Origin: Psychrobacter sp. FME6
GTDB lineage: Bacteria > Pseudomonadota > Gammaproteobacteria > Pseudomonadales > Moraxellaceae
Direction: 5' to 3'
Length of the DNA stretch: 64,000 nt
NCBI RefSeq assembly: GCF_014861365.1
Contig: NZ_RRYW01000001.1
Coordinates: forward strand, 1 to 64,000
Below the pieces are notes generated by a model. The model had not been told where the DNA came from. It saw only the letters and a program-made list of their open reading frames with translations, and searched no databases. This document shows, piece after piece, positions 12,715-29,842 of this stretch; position 1 is the first letter of the stretch, and every line of letters begins with the position of its first letter. The translations under genes were made by a program, and so were the position numbers.

Positions 12715-13593
12715 CTAATGACTGAGAGCATGTAGGGTGACTAGCGCAACCACGGGTGCGGTCTCAGTACGTAAGACTCTCGTGCCGATTTGCCAAGGCT
12801 TAAAACCCACGTTTGCGGCTTGTGCGCATTCATCGCTGCTAAGTCCGCCTTCAGGGCCAACCAAGAGCTCAATATAAGGGGTTTGTTGTTTTAGCACGGT
12901 GGATAAGGATTCAGGCCTAGCGGGTTGTCCTTCTGCTGGCACGCTTAACTGTAGTCTCAAGTCGGCTGGTTGCTGTAATACTTTATAATAGGGACTTTGG
13001 CTAAGCATGGCTACGATAGAGCTGACCGTTGTTTCTGTGTTTGAAGTTTTGGAAGGCTTATAGGGATTGGCTTCTAATTGTTTCAGCCAGTCAGTGATAG
13101 ATAGCGGGGCAAGGATAAGCGGTGGGCGATTGAGTCCACATTGTTCACAGGCGGCAATAGCGATCTGCTGCCAGTGTGCAAGCTTTTTTTCGACTTGTGC
13201 AGGTTTTAGATTAACCTCGCCATGATGACTGCTTAGCAGTTGAATAGCAGTCACCCCAAGCTCAGTCGACTTCTGAATCGCATAATCCATCCGTTCGCCG
13301 CGACTCATCACCAGACCGACTTTAGTTGATACGGATGCACTACGGTCTTCATTGATATGAGCCAATAACGTTACCGTGGCGTGCTTTTTGCTGATAGTTT
13401 TTAGCTGCACTTGATACTCACCGCCAAAGCCATCAAATAAAATACCTCGATCGCCAATATTGGCTCGTAATACCCGGCACCAATGATGAACGATACTCTC
13501 TGTTAACTCAATATCAGCGCCGATAGGCAAACTATTAAGCTGAGGGTAGGTTAGATTTGATTCATCACTGGTGGCATAAAAAAAACGTCGCAA
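12715..13593 (-). CDS. rsmE: 16S rRNA m3U1498 methyltransferase
   Basis: It methylates N3 of U1498 in 16S rRNA on the assembled 30S subunit. The N-terminus has the family-typical MRRFF and VHHWCRVLRANIGD. The C-terminal SPOUT knot is clear: LLVGPEGGLSSDE, then IGTRVLRTETAPVVAL. The start is a TTG codon at 13593, chosen because MRRFF is the usual beginning of the family. At 292 residues it is about 50 longer than usual. The extra length is an insertion of low complexity around residues 165-225, between the CEQCGLNRPP motif and the GPEGG motif. Confidence 0.93.
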   Translation of the reverse strand: MRRFFYATSDESNLTYPQLNSLPIGADIELTESIVHHWCRVLRANIGDRGILFDGFGGEYQVQLKTISKKHATVTLLAHINEDRSASVSTKVGLVMSRGERMDYAIQKSTELGVTAIQLLSSHHGEVNLKPAQVEKKLAHWQQIAIAACEQCGLNRPPLILAPLSITDWLKQLEANPYKPSKTSNTETTVSSIVAMLSQSPYYKVLQQPADLRLQLSVPAEGQPARPESLSTVLKQQTPYIELLVGPEGGLSSDECAQAANVGFKPWQIGTRVLRTETAPVVALVTLHALSH

Positions 13594-13698: not shown

Positions 13699-13730
13699 AA
13701 AAACTGGCACTCCTAAGAACGCCAGTTTTT
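13699..13730 (-). terminator. Intrinsic terminator of ahcY-metF operon
   Basis: AAAAACTGGC (13699-13708) pairs with GCCAGTTTTT (13721-13730) around a 12-base loop, followed by a T-run on the minus strand. It lies 37 bases beyond the metF stop codon. Confidence 0.85.
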
Positions 13731-13767: not shown

Positions 13768-14616
13768 CTAAGTAGACAGTCCTAAAGCTTCAACCAAACG
13801 TTTATTAGGCTCAACCTTATTCATGCTATAAAAATGCATGGCGGGCGCGCCCTCAGTGATTAAACGCTCACAAAGACGGTGTACCACCTCAAAACCAAAC
13901 TCGCGAATGGCTTTGCGGTCGTCGCCAAAGTCGGCCAATTGCTTACGCACGTAACGCGGAATATCTGCGCCACAGCTATCAGCAAAACGTACCAGATTGC
14001 TAGAGTTGGTAATCGGCATAATACCAGCAACCAATGGCTGCGCCACGGTATCGATACCGCGTTTCTCTAAGCTGTCACGCAGATATAAATAGCTATCGGC
14101 GTTATAGAAAAACTGGGTAATCGAAGAATTGGCACCAGCTTGATATTTATTAACCAAGTTATCAACATCGAACTCAAAACTACGCGCTTGGGGATGCATC
14201 TCAGGGTAGGCCGCTACCTCTATACGGAAGTGGTCACCTGAGTGTTCACGGATAAACTTAACCAAGTCTAACGCAAACGGCAGCTCACCCATACCAACTT
14301 GCCCTGATGGCAAGTCACCACGTAGTGCTACCAGACGCTTAATGCCTAAGCTTTTGTAATGCTCCAGCAATTCAGCGATTTCCGCTTTATCATCACCGAT
14401 ACAAGACATGTGCGGTGCAACATCGGTCTGACCGCGTGCGCATAAGGCTTGAACAATATCCAAGGTGCGGCTACGGGTTGAGCCGCCAGCCCCATAAGTC
14501 ACCGAAAAGTAGCTCGGTGATAGCTTATTCAGCTCATCATAAGTACTGAGTAGCTTCTCATGACCTTGCTCAGTTTTGGCCGGAAAAAACTCAAAGGAGA
14601 AAGCAGGCTTAGTCAC
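13768..14616 (-). CDS. metF: 5,10-methylenetetrahydrofolate reductase
   Basis: This flavoprotein makes 5-methyl-THF, the methyl donor for methionine synthesis. At 282 residues it has the normal length of the single-domain bacterial enzyme. It opens with SFEFFPAKTEQGHEKL, where the Glu of FEFFP is the catalytic residue of the family. It continues with FSVTYGAGGSTR, LVALRGDLP and a late QPLVAGIMPITN. The start is GTG at 14616 after a good AGGAG, seven to eight bases upstream. It lies 13 bases after ahcY, so the two form an operon joining SAH removal to methyl supply, presumably under the SAH riboswitch upstream of ahcY. Confidence 0.96.
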   Translation of the reverse strand: MTKPAFSFEFFPAKTEQGHEKLLSTYDELNKLSPSYFSVTYGAGGSTRSRTLDIVQALCARGQTDVAPHMSCIGDDKAEIAELLEHYKSLGIKRLVALRGDLPSGQVGMGELPFALDLVKFIREHSGDHFRIEVAAYPEMHPQARSFEFDVDNLVNKYQAGANSSITQFFYNADSYLYLRDSLEKRGIDTVAQPLVAGIMPITNSSNLVRFADSCGADIPRYVRKQLADFGDDRKAIREFGFEVVHRLCERLITEGAPAMHFYSMNKVEPNKRLVEALGLST

Positions 14617-14629
14617 AGTCTGGCTCCTT

Positions 14630-16054
14630 TTAATATTTATAAGCGTCAGGCTTAAATGGACCTTCTACAGGCACACCCAAGTACTCAGCTTGTTTTTCAG
14701 TCAGCTTAGTTAGCGTACCGTTAAAACCAGCAACCATCGCAGCAGCGACTTCTTCGTCAAGTTTCTTAGGCAATACTTTGACGTATAAGTTATCAGCACG
14801 TGTATCAGCTGGTAGCTCTGCAAATTTTTCTTCGAACAGATACATTTGCGCTAGTACTTGGTTGGCAAATGAGCCGTCCATCACGCGTGATGGGTGACCA
14901 GTCGCATTACCTAGGTTTACTAAGCGACCTTCAGCAAGCAAAATTAAATAGTCGTTTTCATCGTCTGAGCGGAAGATTTGATGGACTTGTGGTTTAATCT
15001 CAACCCAGCGCCAGTTATCACGCATAAACTGCGTGTCGATTTCGGTATCAAAGTGACCGATGTTACAAACCACTGCACCCGGTTTAAGCGCCGCTAGCAT
15101 ATGTCTATCACAAACATGATAGTTGCCGGTAGTGGTGACAATCATGTCGGTGTCTTCGAGCAAGCGAGTATTGATGTTTTCTGCGCCACCGCTGTTATCG
15201 CCATTGATATATGGTGATAGTACTTCAAAACCGTCCATACATGCCTGCATCGCGCAGATAGGATCGACTTCTGAAACACGGACAATCATACCTTCTTGAC
15301 GTAAGCTTTGCGTCGAGCCTTTACCCACATCGCCATAACCGATAACTAAGGCGCGACGACCAGCAAGGAACATGTCAGTAGCACGTTTGATAGCGTCATT
15401 TAAGCTATGACGGCAGCCGTATTTGTTGTCGTTTTTAGACTTGGTGACCGCATCATTGACGTTGATAGCAGGTACTTTTAGCGTGCCTTTACCAAGCATT
15501 TCAACCAAGCGATGGACGCCAGTAGTGGTTTCTTCTGAAATACCATGGATATTATCCAGCAATTGGGCATAATCATTATGAATCAAAGCAGTTAAGTCAC
15601 CGCCGTCATCCAAGATTAGGTTTGCATCCCAAAGCTGACCAGACGCTTCACCGCCAACGTGGATTTGTTGACGTAAGCACCATTCGTACTCTTCGTCAGT
15701 TTCGCCTTTCCATGCAAATACTGGAATACCAGCAGCAGCAATCGCAGCCGCAGCATGGTCTTGGGTTGAGAAGATATTACATGACGTCCAGCGTACTTCG
15801 GCACCGAGCGCAATCAGCGTCTCGATAAGAACGGCAGTCTGAATAGTCATGTGGATACAGCCAGCGATTTTCGCGCCTTTAAGCGGCTGTTCTGCTTCGT
15901 AGCGACGACGCAAACCCATCAGGGCAGGCATTTCGGCTTCAGCAAGGGTGATTTCACGGCGGCCGTAATCAGCTAAGCTGATGTCAGCGACTTTATAGTC
16001 AGTGAAAGAGGGATCGATCGTATGGGCAGATGGGGTGTTAGACACTGCGTCCAT
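14630..16054 (-). CDS. ahcY: S-adenosylhomocysteine hydrolase
   Basis: It splits S-adenosylhomocysteine into adenosine and homocysteine, relieving product inhibition of methyltransferases. The product has 474 residues, matching the bacterial long form. Visible motifs: [31 protein letters not shown], the NAD-binding [21 protein letters not shown] and the C-terminal [10 protein letters not shown]. It is the first gene of the ahcY-metF operon. The leader of about 190 bases upstream holds a probable SAH riboswitch. Confidence 0.97.
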
Positions 16055-16122
16055 AATATGCTCCTATCAGTGGTTAATTTATGATAAAAAGAATAAAAAC
16101 GCAGGTGCCGTTATTTGCGCTG

Positions 16123-16249
16123 TCAATAATCAGCGGAGTGATTATTAAACAGTTACCGAGCCTAACATAATGAATAATATGCACAGCGATATAGCTTAAA
16201 TGCAGTAATCAATGATTATGGCGCAACACCTCTCGGAGGGTGATTATTG
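16123..16249 (-). promoter_or_regulatory. Probable SAH riboswitch and downstream switching hairpin
   Basis: On the minus strand CCGAG (16236-16232) pairs with CTCGG (16160-16156) as P1. Between them lie AGGTGTTGC, resembling the conserved GAGCGYUGC segment of the SAH aptamer, a second stem CATAAT (16220-16215) / ATTATG (16172-16167), and the conserved AGG just before the 3-prime P1 strand. Downstream, AATAATCA (16146-16139) can pair with TGATTATT (16132-16125). The same 3-prime strand, as TGATTATTG (16132-16124), can also pair with CAATAATCA (16249-16241), which lies 5-prime of the aptamer. The ahcY start is at 16054. Known SAH riboswitches are ON switches in front of ahcY and metF-type genes, which fits. 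No clear T-run follows the hairpin, so the mechanism is open. Confidence 0.75.
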
Positions 16250-16340
16250 TAATAGATGCAACCTAGATTGTCACCTATTGACTGATATAAATAATAGGCA
16301 ATCATGGCATATCAAATGATGATGAGATTTCTAATACCAT

Positions 16341-16367
16341 AAAAAAAGGCCATCGAGTGATGACCTT
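16341..16367 (-). terminator. Intrinsic terminator of TonB-dependent receptor gene
   Basis: AAGGCCATC (16346-...) pairs with GATGACCTT (...-16367) around GAGT with one mismatch. On the minus strand it is followed by seven T residues, about 40 bases past the stop codon. Confidence 0.75.
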
Positions 16368-16407
16368 AATTATTTATGACCTAATTTATAACTGGCGCTA
16401 AATAAGC

Positions 16408-18315
16408 TTAGTACCAGTTATAAGTAAGTGAGGTGAAGAAGTTGATACCGTCAGTATCATAACCGGGCAGGGTAATATATTTTTTATTAGTAATATTGTT
16501 TAGACGTGCGGTCATCGATAGATTGTCAGTCAGTTTATAGTTACCACTGATATTCACTAAGCCATAAGAGTCGACCAATTGTGAGTCTGTATTGGCGACA
16601 TTGCTATAATAATCACCTACGTGTTCATATTCAGCGCGGATATCCAAGCTTGGTAGGCGATAACCAGCATATACCAACCCTTGATGTTCGGGACGAATAG
16701 ACAGGAAGTTACCATCATTCATTCCGTTACTATCATCTTTTGCTTGCTGATAGTCATAGCTACCACCAAATAGGTAGTTATCAACGACCCAGTCTGACGT
16801 TAATGTCACACCTTTGATTTTGGCTTTATCAACGTTTTCGCTGCTACCACCAAACGGATTGCTTGGGGTGGGCTTAGCAACATAGCCAATCAAATCTTCT
16901 ACTTTACTATAGTAACCGGTTAACCGTGTAGACTGAATATCAGTGTCGTACTCCATAAAGGCTTCGTAGTTATCACTGGTTTCAGGCTTCAAGTCAGTAT
17001 TTCCTGAGCCAGGATAGTATAAGTCATTAAAGGTAGGGGCGCGGAATCCTTTAGCGTAGTTAACCCCAGCGCGTATATTAGGATTAATATGATAAGCACC
17101 GCCTAAGTTATAGGTGGTTTCATTACCATATTGTGAGTCATCATCAAACCGTAGGTTGGCTTGAGCATCGAATTGATTGTTTGCTAATACGTATCCTAAA
17201 AATGCACTTTTCACATCACGATCATTGACGTCATAAGCAGTACTATCGAGACCTTGGTTAAGGTACTCTAACCCATAGATACCTTGGCCAACTGCTAGTT
17301 TGTGTTGTCCAATCAAGCTAACTTGATCTTGCTTAGTATTAAATACGTCACCAAATTGACCATAAGTATCACTCTTATCAATTGAGTGACCGTATTGAAG
17401 CTTTAAGGATGAGCCAGGCAGATAACGCCAATCAACAAACGCCTGAGCGGCTCCATTTTCTTGGTCTGCATGGGCGTTTTCAAAATCACCATCATCAAAG
17501 TCTGTCGTGGACTTGCTGTATAAAGCACTAGCACCCGCTAACCATTGCTCATTGATGCGTTGTGTTATCGCCAAACTCACATTGTCACTTTTAAAGCCAT
17601 CATCATCGCCATTGTAAGACGAGTATGGATTGCTAGGGTCCGGCAAAGTGGCATTAAAACCATCTGTTTCATTATGGCTGGCTGATAGACTTAGAGTCGT
17701 ACCACTATCATTATTAATTTGGGCACTAGCGCCGTATAAGTATTGATCATGAGAGCCTACGCCAGCAGTAACAGAGAAATGGCTTTGTTCTGCATCACGA
17801 CCTTTTGTAAAGACTTGAATCACGCCGCCCATCGCGTCTGCGCCATAGATACTAGAACCTGAGGCGCCATATAAGATTTCGATACGATCGATTTGATCTG
17901 CAGGCAATAAGCTAAGGGTTGCACCACCAGCACTGATTGAGCTATAGCGTACGCCATCTATAAGTACTAGAATTTGATTGCTGTTATAGCCTCGCATATA
18001 GAAGTTAGAGGTGGTTCCGGTCCCACCATTGGTATAATGACTGATACCTGGTTGGCGCTTAAGAACATCAAGTGCGCTTTGACCTTGATGGTGTTGCAGC
18101 TCTTCCTTATCAATTACTCGGGTTTGAGCGATGGTATTACTGATTTTAGTCGCTGTACGGGTAGCGGTTACGACGATCTTATCAAGCTCAACTTCTGGTA
18201 GCTCGCTATCATTTAATTCATTAGTGGCAGCTGTTGCATTCATGGCAAATACGCCAAGCGTGCTTAAAATACATAACCGAAGATAGGTAGTCGAAAATGC
18301 ACGTGATAAAGCCAT
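16408..18315 (-). CDS. TonB-dependent outer-membrane receptor, BtuB-like
   Basis: The product has 635 residues from ATG 18315, which follows GGA with eight bases spacing. An upstream TTG in frame is less likely. A signal peptide ends near AMNATAA. A TonB box follows as DKIVVTATR. Then comes a plug domain (SALDVLKRQPGISH, MRGYNSNQILVLIDGVR, ADQIDRIEILYGASGSSIYGA, GGVIQVFTK) and a beta-barrel ending in an aromatic residue (SLTYNWY). The size and plug resemble BtuB, the vitamin B12 receptor. No cobalamin riboswitch is visible upstream, and no B12 or iron gene lies nearby, so the substrate is uncertain. A small palindrome at 18385-18400 could be an operator for a metal repressor. Confidence 0.85.
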   Translation of the reverse strand: MALSRAFSTTYLRLCILSTLGVFAMNATAATNELNDSELPEVELDKIVVTATRTATKISNTIAQTRVIDKEELQHHQGQSALDVLKRQPGISHYTNGGTGTTSNFYMRGYNSNQILVLIDGVRYSSISAGGATLSLLPADQIDRIEILYGASGSSIYGADAMGGVIQVFTKGRDAEQSHFSVTAGVGSHDQYLYGASAQINNDSGTTLSLSASHNETDGFNATLPDPSNPYSSYNGDDDGFKSDNVSLAITQRINEQWLAGASALYSKSTTDFDDGDFENAHADQENGAAQAFVDWRYLPGSSLKLQYGHSIDKSDTYGQFGDVFNTKQDQVSLIGQHKLAVGQGIYGLEYLNQGLDSTAYDVNDRDVKSAFLGYVLANNQFDAQANLRFDDDSQYGNETTYNLGGAYHINPNIRAGVNYAKGFRAPTFNDLYYPGSGNTDLKPETSDNYEAFMEYDTDIQSTRLTGYYSKVEDLIGYVAKPTPSNPFGGSSENVDKAKIKGVTLTSDWVVDNYLFGGSYDYQQAKDDSNGMNDGNFLSIRPEHQGLVYAGYRLPSLDIRAEYEHVGDYYSNVANTDSQLVDSYGLVNISGNYKLTDNLSMTARLNNITNKKYITLPGYDTDGINFFTSLTYNWY

Positions 18316-18384
18316 ATTTAATTCCAAATTAATCAAATAAAGAAGATACAGAAGAGAAGGTCAAGAATTTAAAAATTACAAAAA

Positions 18385-29727: not shown

Positions 29728-29842
29728 TGGTGGCTCCATTGGTAGCCTCGCAACATTGTTCTATGAATCCCGCCAGGACCGGAAGGTAGCAACGGTAATA
29801 GTTATAATGTGTGCCGAGGATGTGCTTTTGGAGTCGCTTTTT
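29728..29842 (+). ncRNA. ffs: 4.5S RNA of the signal recognition particle
   Basis: The conserved SRP hairpin apex is present on both strands of the stem: CCAGGACCGGAAGGTAGCAA near 29782-29801, and GTGTGCCGAGGATGTGC near 29810-29826. The ends GGTGGCTCC and GGAGTCGC pair, closing a hairpin of about 110 bases, typical of the small bacterial form. A run of T residues follows at 29838. The RNA binds Ffh and targets inner-membrane proteins to FtsY and the translocon. Confidence 0.95.

Follow-up and report, generated by a model that had tools for sequence, protein, structure and literature searches.

The ahcY-metF locus

The window analysed here (the whole stretch of 64,000 nucleotides from Psychrobacter sp. 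FME6) carries on its minus strand the gene ahcY (14630..16054), which encodes an adenosylhomocysteinase of 474 amino acids and exceeds the cut-off of TIGR00936 (521.9 bits; cut-off 497.6). Downstream of ahcY, after a gap of 13 nt, follows a metF-like gene for a methylenetetrahydrofolate reductase (13768..14616, minus strand), which begins with GTG and scores just below the cut-off of TIGR00676 (293.6 against 293.7 bits). Judging from this short gap, a co-control of metF by co-transcription with ahcY is plausible. A terminator-like site on the same strand (13699-13730), composed of 14 pairs and a T tail, lies between metF and an rsmE-like gene (12715-13593). The gene upstream of the ahcY leader (16408-18336, minus strand) resembles genes for TonB-dependent vitamin B12 receptors, with a TIGR01779 score of 394.8 bits that is below the cut-off of 599.7, and it is followed by another terminator-like site (16367-16346, minus strand; terminator scan), which separates it from the leader. 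Elsewhere in the window, a bacterial small SRP RNA is encoded on the plus strand (29737-29833; RF00169, 69.5 bits).

The ahcY leader and the SAH riboswitch class

The preliminary description of this DNA had proposed an SAH-class aptamer upstream of ahcY-metF. All pieces that it named are present on the minus strand at the letters given, P1, P2 and AGGTGTTGC are conserved genus-wide beyond chance, and the features of the Rfam family RF01057 are found in the leader: P1, P2 inside P1, a P4 pseudoknot, the conserved letters, and a position upstream of the SAH-recycling genes ahcY and metF. The unpaired TGC, AGG and AACG of RF01057 are kept in 104/104 leaders from the same genus. What sets the leader apart from RF01057 is an apical insertion in P2 and a hairpin in the linker between P1 and P4, together with a low score. 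At 16124-16240 the stock model reached 18.5 bits (E 0.68 in 801 bases), where the gathering cut-off is 37, and an Rfam scan of the whole window at cut-off gave no RF01057 match. This score is explained by the long insertions and by a misplaced P4 strand in the Rfam alignment, which sets the P4 3' strand on the linker hairpin, whereas the likely strand lies further downstream (16110-16103).

A custom model, R1, was built from 22 SAH leaders of other genera, with zero Psychrobacter sequences among them (16 above the Rfam cut-off, 6 below), which had been selected for compactness from the loci collected and in which TGC, AGG and AAC are invariant. Its automatic structure comprises P4 and part of P2, without P1. 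R1 matched the window with 33.6 bits and an E of 1.2e-7 in 64 kb (a rough value owing to short calibration) and placed P4 at 16103-16110; the second-best match in the window had 10.3 bits. The proposed aptamer is well supported: the stock model stays under its cut-off, but the model from relatives matches, and P1, P2 and P4 are conserved with compensating changes. Judged from its sequence, the leader before ahcY is very probably a genuine RNA switch that senses SAH and belongs to a class described before from Moraxellaceae; as expected of this class, its RNA would bind SAH and discriminate against SAM.

The passages on the SAH riboswitch in Leyn et al. (2014; PMC4239095) describe such elements in Moraxellaceae with ahcY and metF as core genes, list rsmE (COG1385) as a member of the SAH regulon in this family, and give no SAH expression platform; according to the columns of Table 1, two of the four Moraxellaceae genomes possess an SAH riboswitch. 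Class, family and core genes agree with these passages, and the difference is the terminator-like site that parts metF from rsmE here. Because of this site, rsmE may lie outside the ahcY transcript in our strain, despite the published regulon. The SAM/SAH riboswitch RF01727 resembles the leader in SAH recognition, as SAH is among its ligands (PMC7367207), and differs in its setting upstream of metK in Rhodobacterales (PMC2864571, relevant passages); no RF01727 match was obtained in the leader up to E 10.

Anatomy of the aptamer and its conservation in Psychrobacter

Of 105 genomes of the genus, among them the window's own, 104 yielded ahcY, and each of these contributed one leader to the genus set. 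The motifs C[CT]GAG, T[TC]AGGCTC[GA]G, [CT]AACG[AG]CACCTGC and ATG[GA]ACGCAGTGTC are shared by 104/104 leaders, so that core, P4 strand and ahcY start ACGCAGTGTC are present throughout; these counts, like all counts across leaders and loci given here, ignore relatedness. Two short patterns, one for each half of the element, were each detected in 39/40 genomes. The window's genome has two matches to each half-pattern, and the sole pair lying together is on contig C108.

All elements of the leader are on the minus strand. P1 is formed by CCGAG (16232..16236) and CTCGG (16160-16156), the latter directly preceded by AGG (16163-16161). CCGAG/CTCGG occurs in 102/104 leaders and the compensated CTGAG/CTCAG in 2/104. 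Over 194 Moraxellaceae loci, pairs 1-3 of P1 were standard in 168, 171 and 186, numbers which include wrong AGGCT sites taken by the script at some loci, and the genus counts are used instead.

The segment AGGTGTTGC (16231-16223) is exact in 102/104 leaders and reads GGGTGTTGC in two. It contains the P4 5' strand AGGTGTTG (16224..16231), which forms a pseudoknot of 8 bp with the P4 3' strand CGGCACCT (16103..16110). This latter strand is the key piece, and the element as delimited in the preliminary description (16123-16249) ends short of it. Across the 194 loci, 1551/1552 pair cells of P4 are standard (0.999), a value obtained with a strand finder that allowed limited letters, among which mismatches were nevertheless possible, and with 52/194 loci from a pattern scan; when the partner was slid by 1-3 positions, the fraction fell to 0.29-0.70. 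Pairs 1, 3 and 6 of P4 vary on both sides.

P2 (16166..16220) consists of CATAAT (16215-16220) paired with ATTATG (16166-16171) and a long, variable apical insertion. Over the 104 leaders, 570/624 P2 cells are standard, compared to 161, 161 and 275 after sliding by 1, 2 or 3 positions, and 42 distinct arm pairs were encountered. The distance from TGC to T[TC]AGG, which covers P2 and its insertion, varies between 20 and 109 nt, and P1-P4 linkers are 23-240 nt long. The window's linker contains an inserted hairpin (16120..16152) with AATAATCA (16146-16139) and TGATTATTG (16132-16124). Among linkers of at most 70 nt, 91/95 fold at -5 kcal/mol or better in a count without shuffled control. The AATAATCA/TGATTATTG hairpin is the window's version of the variable P1-P4 linker insertion. 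Linkers of 129-240 nt occur in 8/104 Psychrobacter leaders (L077, L079, L080, L134, L135, L136, L139 and L162), with the P4 strand still kept.

A probable second partner of the P4 strand at the ahcY start

The P4 3' strand and its conserved flank constitute a putative switching strand, GGCACCTGCGT (16099..16109), whose partner would be either the P4 5' strand or codons 2-5 of ahcY. The ahcY start is ATGGACGCAGTGTC (16041..16054), and ACGCAGTGTC (16041-16050) within it is the candidate decoy: GGCACCTGCGT and ACGCAGTGTC can form 10 pairs with one bulged C. Between both lies a predicted weak hairpin (16061..16090) made of TTTTTATCA (16082-16090) and TGATAGGAG (16061-16069), which holds the Shine-Dalgarno sequence GGAG (16061-16064).

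Across 58 ahcY genes with 474 codons each, no invariant run is longer than ATGGACGCAGTGTC (14 nt; next 9), and when M and W are excluded just 18 of 351 invariant residues have an invariant codon. Two divergent genomes have AAC instead of GAC as codon 2, with ACGCAGTGTC unchanged. CTGCG in the leader and CGCAG in the gene are partners in 102/104 Psychrobacter leaders, and the remaining two (L037 and L131) have TGCTT, by which one switch pair is lost. When all ahcY windows were ranked by energy, the leader strand had its best complement at the ahcY start in 13/59 ahcY genes and a stronger one elsewhere in the gene in 46/59, a weak result that counts against uniqueness of the start pairing.

Potential start pairing in other Moraxellaceae

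A comparison of lineage partners covered 52 Acinetobacter loci, 10 other Moraxellaceae-type loci and one control. Leader CCGCG is accompanied by gene CGCGG in 51/52 Acinetobacter loci, all taken from a pattern scan that already demanded near-complementarity; the 52nd, A. qingfengensis, has CTGCG/CGCAG. Among the 80 of 117 scan loci that were examined, the varying pair was matched in 63/63 with an aptamer and also in 10/14 unrelated hits, so that the match in Acinetobacter weighs less than it seems. CCGCG/CGCGG is found as well in L095, L097-L099, L104 and L322-L324. Two of the sequences collected stand out by their origin: the ahcY start on a 177-kb plasmid of A. cumulans (L282, NZ_CP035936.1) comes with an SAH riboswitch, and a record titled Streptomyces cinereus JCM 3040 (L233, BMPS01000002.1) has a Moraxellaceae-type ahcY leader and looks mislabelled or contaminated.

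Moraxella-type leaders were fetched from g28 and g31, 25 in all (L081-L094, L311-L321). Among them, L086, L087 and L090 combine GACATCTGTTTAT with ATAGACAGATGTC, which gives 13 pairs spanning the start codon. Many others (e.g., L088, L091, L093, L311-L313) have the motif between the Shine-Dalgarno sequence and a GTG start, as placed by Shine-Dalgarno spacing, where it is mostly non-coding; protein sequence therefore fails to explain the motif. It is coding in L089, L092 and L314. The helix is absent or weak in 5/25 Moraxella-type leaders (L085, L094, L315, L316, L319) and, by eye, in L096. L315 yielded no aptamer by motif, and L094 and L316 have both aptamer and P4 strand far upstream of the start. 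In these five leaders start helix or aptamer seems lost or decoupled, and they may form a natural decay series. Leader and start motif change together in Acinetobacter and Moraxella-type genomes.

Duplex energies were compared for the 148/194 loci at which the start was available; the 46 left out had mostly just 30 nt of the gene. Psychrobacter leaders reached -15.6 with their own starts and -12.1 with Acinetobacter starts, Acinetobacter leaders -12.6 with their own and -9.6 with Psychrobacter starts, and Moraxella-type leaders -15.4 with their own and -9.0 with Acinetobacter starts (here and in the P4 counts, the Moraxella group also contains L089 and L090, two members of g28). For these three large groups, own duplexes thus beat the cross pairs of Psychrobacter or Moraxella-type with Acinetobacter. 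There is no separation where groups share letters: leaders of other Moraxellaceae gave -12.2 with their own and -12.5 with Acinetobacter starts, Psychrobacter leaders gave -15.6 with the one g28 start, and the g28 leader gave -10.9 with its own start and -11.5 with Moraxella-type starts.

Predicted folds of the start region

The minimum free energy of the window region is -18.8 kcal/mol, compared to a mean of -10.6 for shuffled versions (z -2.96), and one of 200 shuffles was as low. Four other Psychrobacter regions gave z values of -2.95 to -3.54, and L086, L087, L090 and L320 about -5. Weak values came from all three Acinetobacter leaders that were folded (-0.8 to -1.6) and from L084 (-1.4), L085 (-0.5), L095 (-1.1) and L319 (+1.0). 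Four core switch pairs are predicted with a mean probability above 0.9 in 102/104 leaders and above 0.5 in all.

When the P4 strand was withheld, the median unpaired probability of positions +4 to +14 rose from 0.01 to 0.54, with a rise of more than 0.3 in 104/104 leaders. The Shine-Dalgarno sequence was still paired in the weak hairpin (median 0.06 unpaired) and the AUG was unchanged (0.57). For the window transcript to +45, the same treatment made the AUG more paired (0.57 to 0.09 unpaired). The folds predict a partial opening of the start region and no more. Calculated without pseudoknot terms, the switch duplex (-14.4) is more stable than the P4 duplex (-9.5), and the energy of the ligand must therefore tip the balance.

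The promoter and alternative modes of switching

The leader promoter appears to consist of a -35 box GTGACA (16269..16274) and a -10 box TACAAT (16246..16251), both on the minus strand, from which transcription would start at about 16241-16238. Since a promoter scan of the window itself gave three sites with 2.2 expected from shuffles, the argument for this promoter rests on conservation: TACAAT is found at most 22 nt before P1 in 103/104 leaders, [AG]TGAC[AT] at 16-18 nt from TACAAT in 103/104, and GTGACA or GTGACT-17-TACAAT in 91/104, where the -10 box ends 7-9 nt before P1. The -10 box overlaps CAATAATCA (16241-16249), and this arm should lie almost wholly outside the transcript. That bears on the switching model of the preliminary description, in which TGATTATTG has two alternative partners, its neighbour AATAATCA and the CAATAATCA arm that precedes the aptamer; the second of these helices would enclose the aptamer. 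Both complements of TGATTATTG do exist in the window (local linker fold -10.6 kcal/mol; upstream duplex -9.1), and the local hairpin with AATAATCA has counterparts of altered sequence. The 5' pairing, 9 bp here, is at chance genus-wide: when the linker is paired with the 16 nt preceding P1 in the 104 leaders, the mean length of the longest helix is 5.48 bp for the real and 5.50 bp for shuffled upstream sequence, and helices of at least 8 bp occur in 9.6% against 8.2% of shuffles. The terminator-like site at 16367-16346, which sets the upstream gene apart, also speaks against the model. On account of the promoter overlap and the genus-wide shuffled control we reject the upstream arm CAATAATCA as a switch element, and an enclosing helix as the switch is highly improbable.

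Another reading is an SAH riboswitch that acts on transcription termination, in which the T-rich stretch that follows TGCG (TGCGTTTTTATTCTTTTT) would be a terminator tail and CGCA/TGCG its short stem. TGCGT is present in 99/104 leaders, in 89/104 the 11 nt that follow contain 8 or more T, and GC-rich hairpins GCTCGC..GCGAGC from the P4 3' strand, some terminator-like by eye, are seen in some other Moraxellaceae (L108, L109, L326, L327, L329). Yet the CGCA arm is not kept, with relatives having GCATAA, GCGTGAA or GTCAAAA, the Acinetobacter leaders L100-L103 are without a T-run there, and a terminator scan of 15950-16500 found none at the T-rich run; we judge a terminator platform in the window to be unlikely. 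A little less doubtful, but still improbable, is that the ahcY start is kept for another reason, such as a translation enhancer or the N-terminal peptide, and that the switch frees just the Shine-Dalgarno hairpin TTTTTATCA/TGATAGGAG. This hairpin is predicted in both states, and Pseudomonas-like SAH leaders carry a Shine-Dalgarno hairpin (GCCCATTCG..CGAATGGAG) directly after P4 (e.g., L168, L171). Against such a view, a changed leader goes with a changed start motif across genera, and in many Moraxella-type leaders the motif lies mostly outside the coding sequence. It is most likely that the switch acts through pairing with the first codons of ahcY itself and not through the helix proposed earlier.

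Discussion

The best explanation, to which we assign a probability of about 0.8, is an RF01057-type SAH riboswitch that turns ahcY translation on, with the P4 strand pairing alternatively with the start of the gene. P1, a long P2 and the P4 pseudoknot would make up its aptamer, and the linker from P1 to P4 would carry a hairpin. When SAH is lacking, GGCACCUGCGU, which comprises the P4 3' strand with its flank, would form 10 pairs and one bulged C with ACGCAGUGUC in ahcY codons 2-5, so that Shine-Dalgarno sequence and start would be enclosed by a hairpin. When SAH is present, P4 would capture the switching strand, the start region would be freed and AhcY would be made, which would then remove SAH; metF would follow by co-transcription. 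PMC7057144 states, citing Wang et al. (2008), that the SAH riboswitch upregulates ahcY expression.

In Pseudomonas-type SAH leaders, judging from their sequences, the P4 3' strand likewise borders on, or shares letters with, a hairpin in which the Shine-Dalgarno sequence is hidden; there the hairpin is a local one and extends no further than the Shine-Dalgarno sequence, whereas here the P4 strand itself reaches codons 2-5. Switching in such leaders was reportedly treated by Wang et al. in 2008. Dual use of the P4 3' strand looks general, and the reach into the coding start looks to be what differs here. No account of a start-pairing platform was found among the matches listed in the literature on the SAH riboswitch in Psychrobacter, Acinetobacter, Moraxellaceae or P. 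syringae or on expression platforms, a coverage outside which most subscription journals lie; a term search of PMC13273304 gave no mention of SAH. The leader is very probably a known element with a corrected anatomy, and it has a probable expression platform for which no description was found.

Besides correcting the switch model, these results show that stock searches miss members of the class, as 104 leaders of one genus carry the element and the window scores at half the cut-off. The one-pair swap from CTGCG/CGCAG to CCGCG/CGCGG, which occurs between natural lineages, provides a handle for testing translational control by SAH. For the clade of Psychrobacter, Moraxella, Acinetobacter and Alkanindiges, we think it rather probable that the first codons of ahcY, or the spacer between Shine-Dalgarno sequence and start, are a decoy of the P4 5' strand, and that in most of the clade the riboswitch has fixed synonymous codons, and partly N-terminal residues, of its target gene, re-matched after change on either side. 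If true, this would be a clear case of a coding sequence whose start is constrained by an RNA switch and not by the protein.
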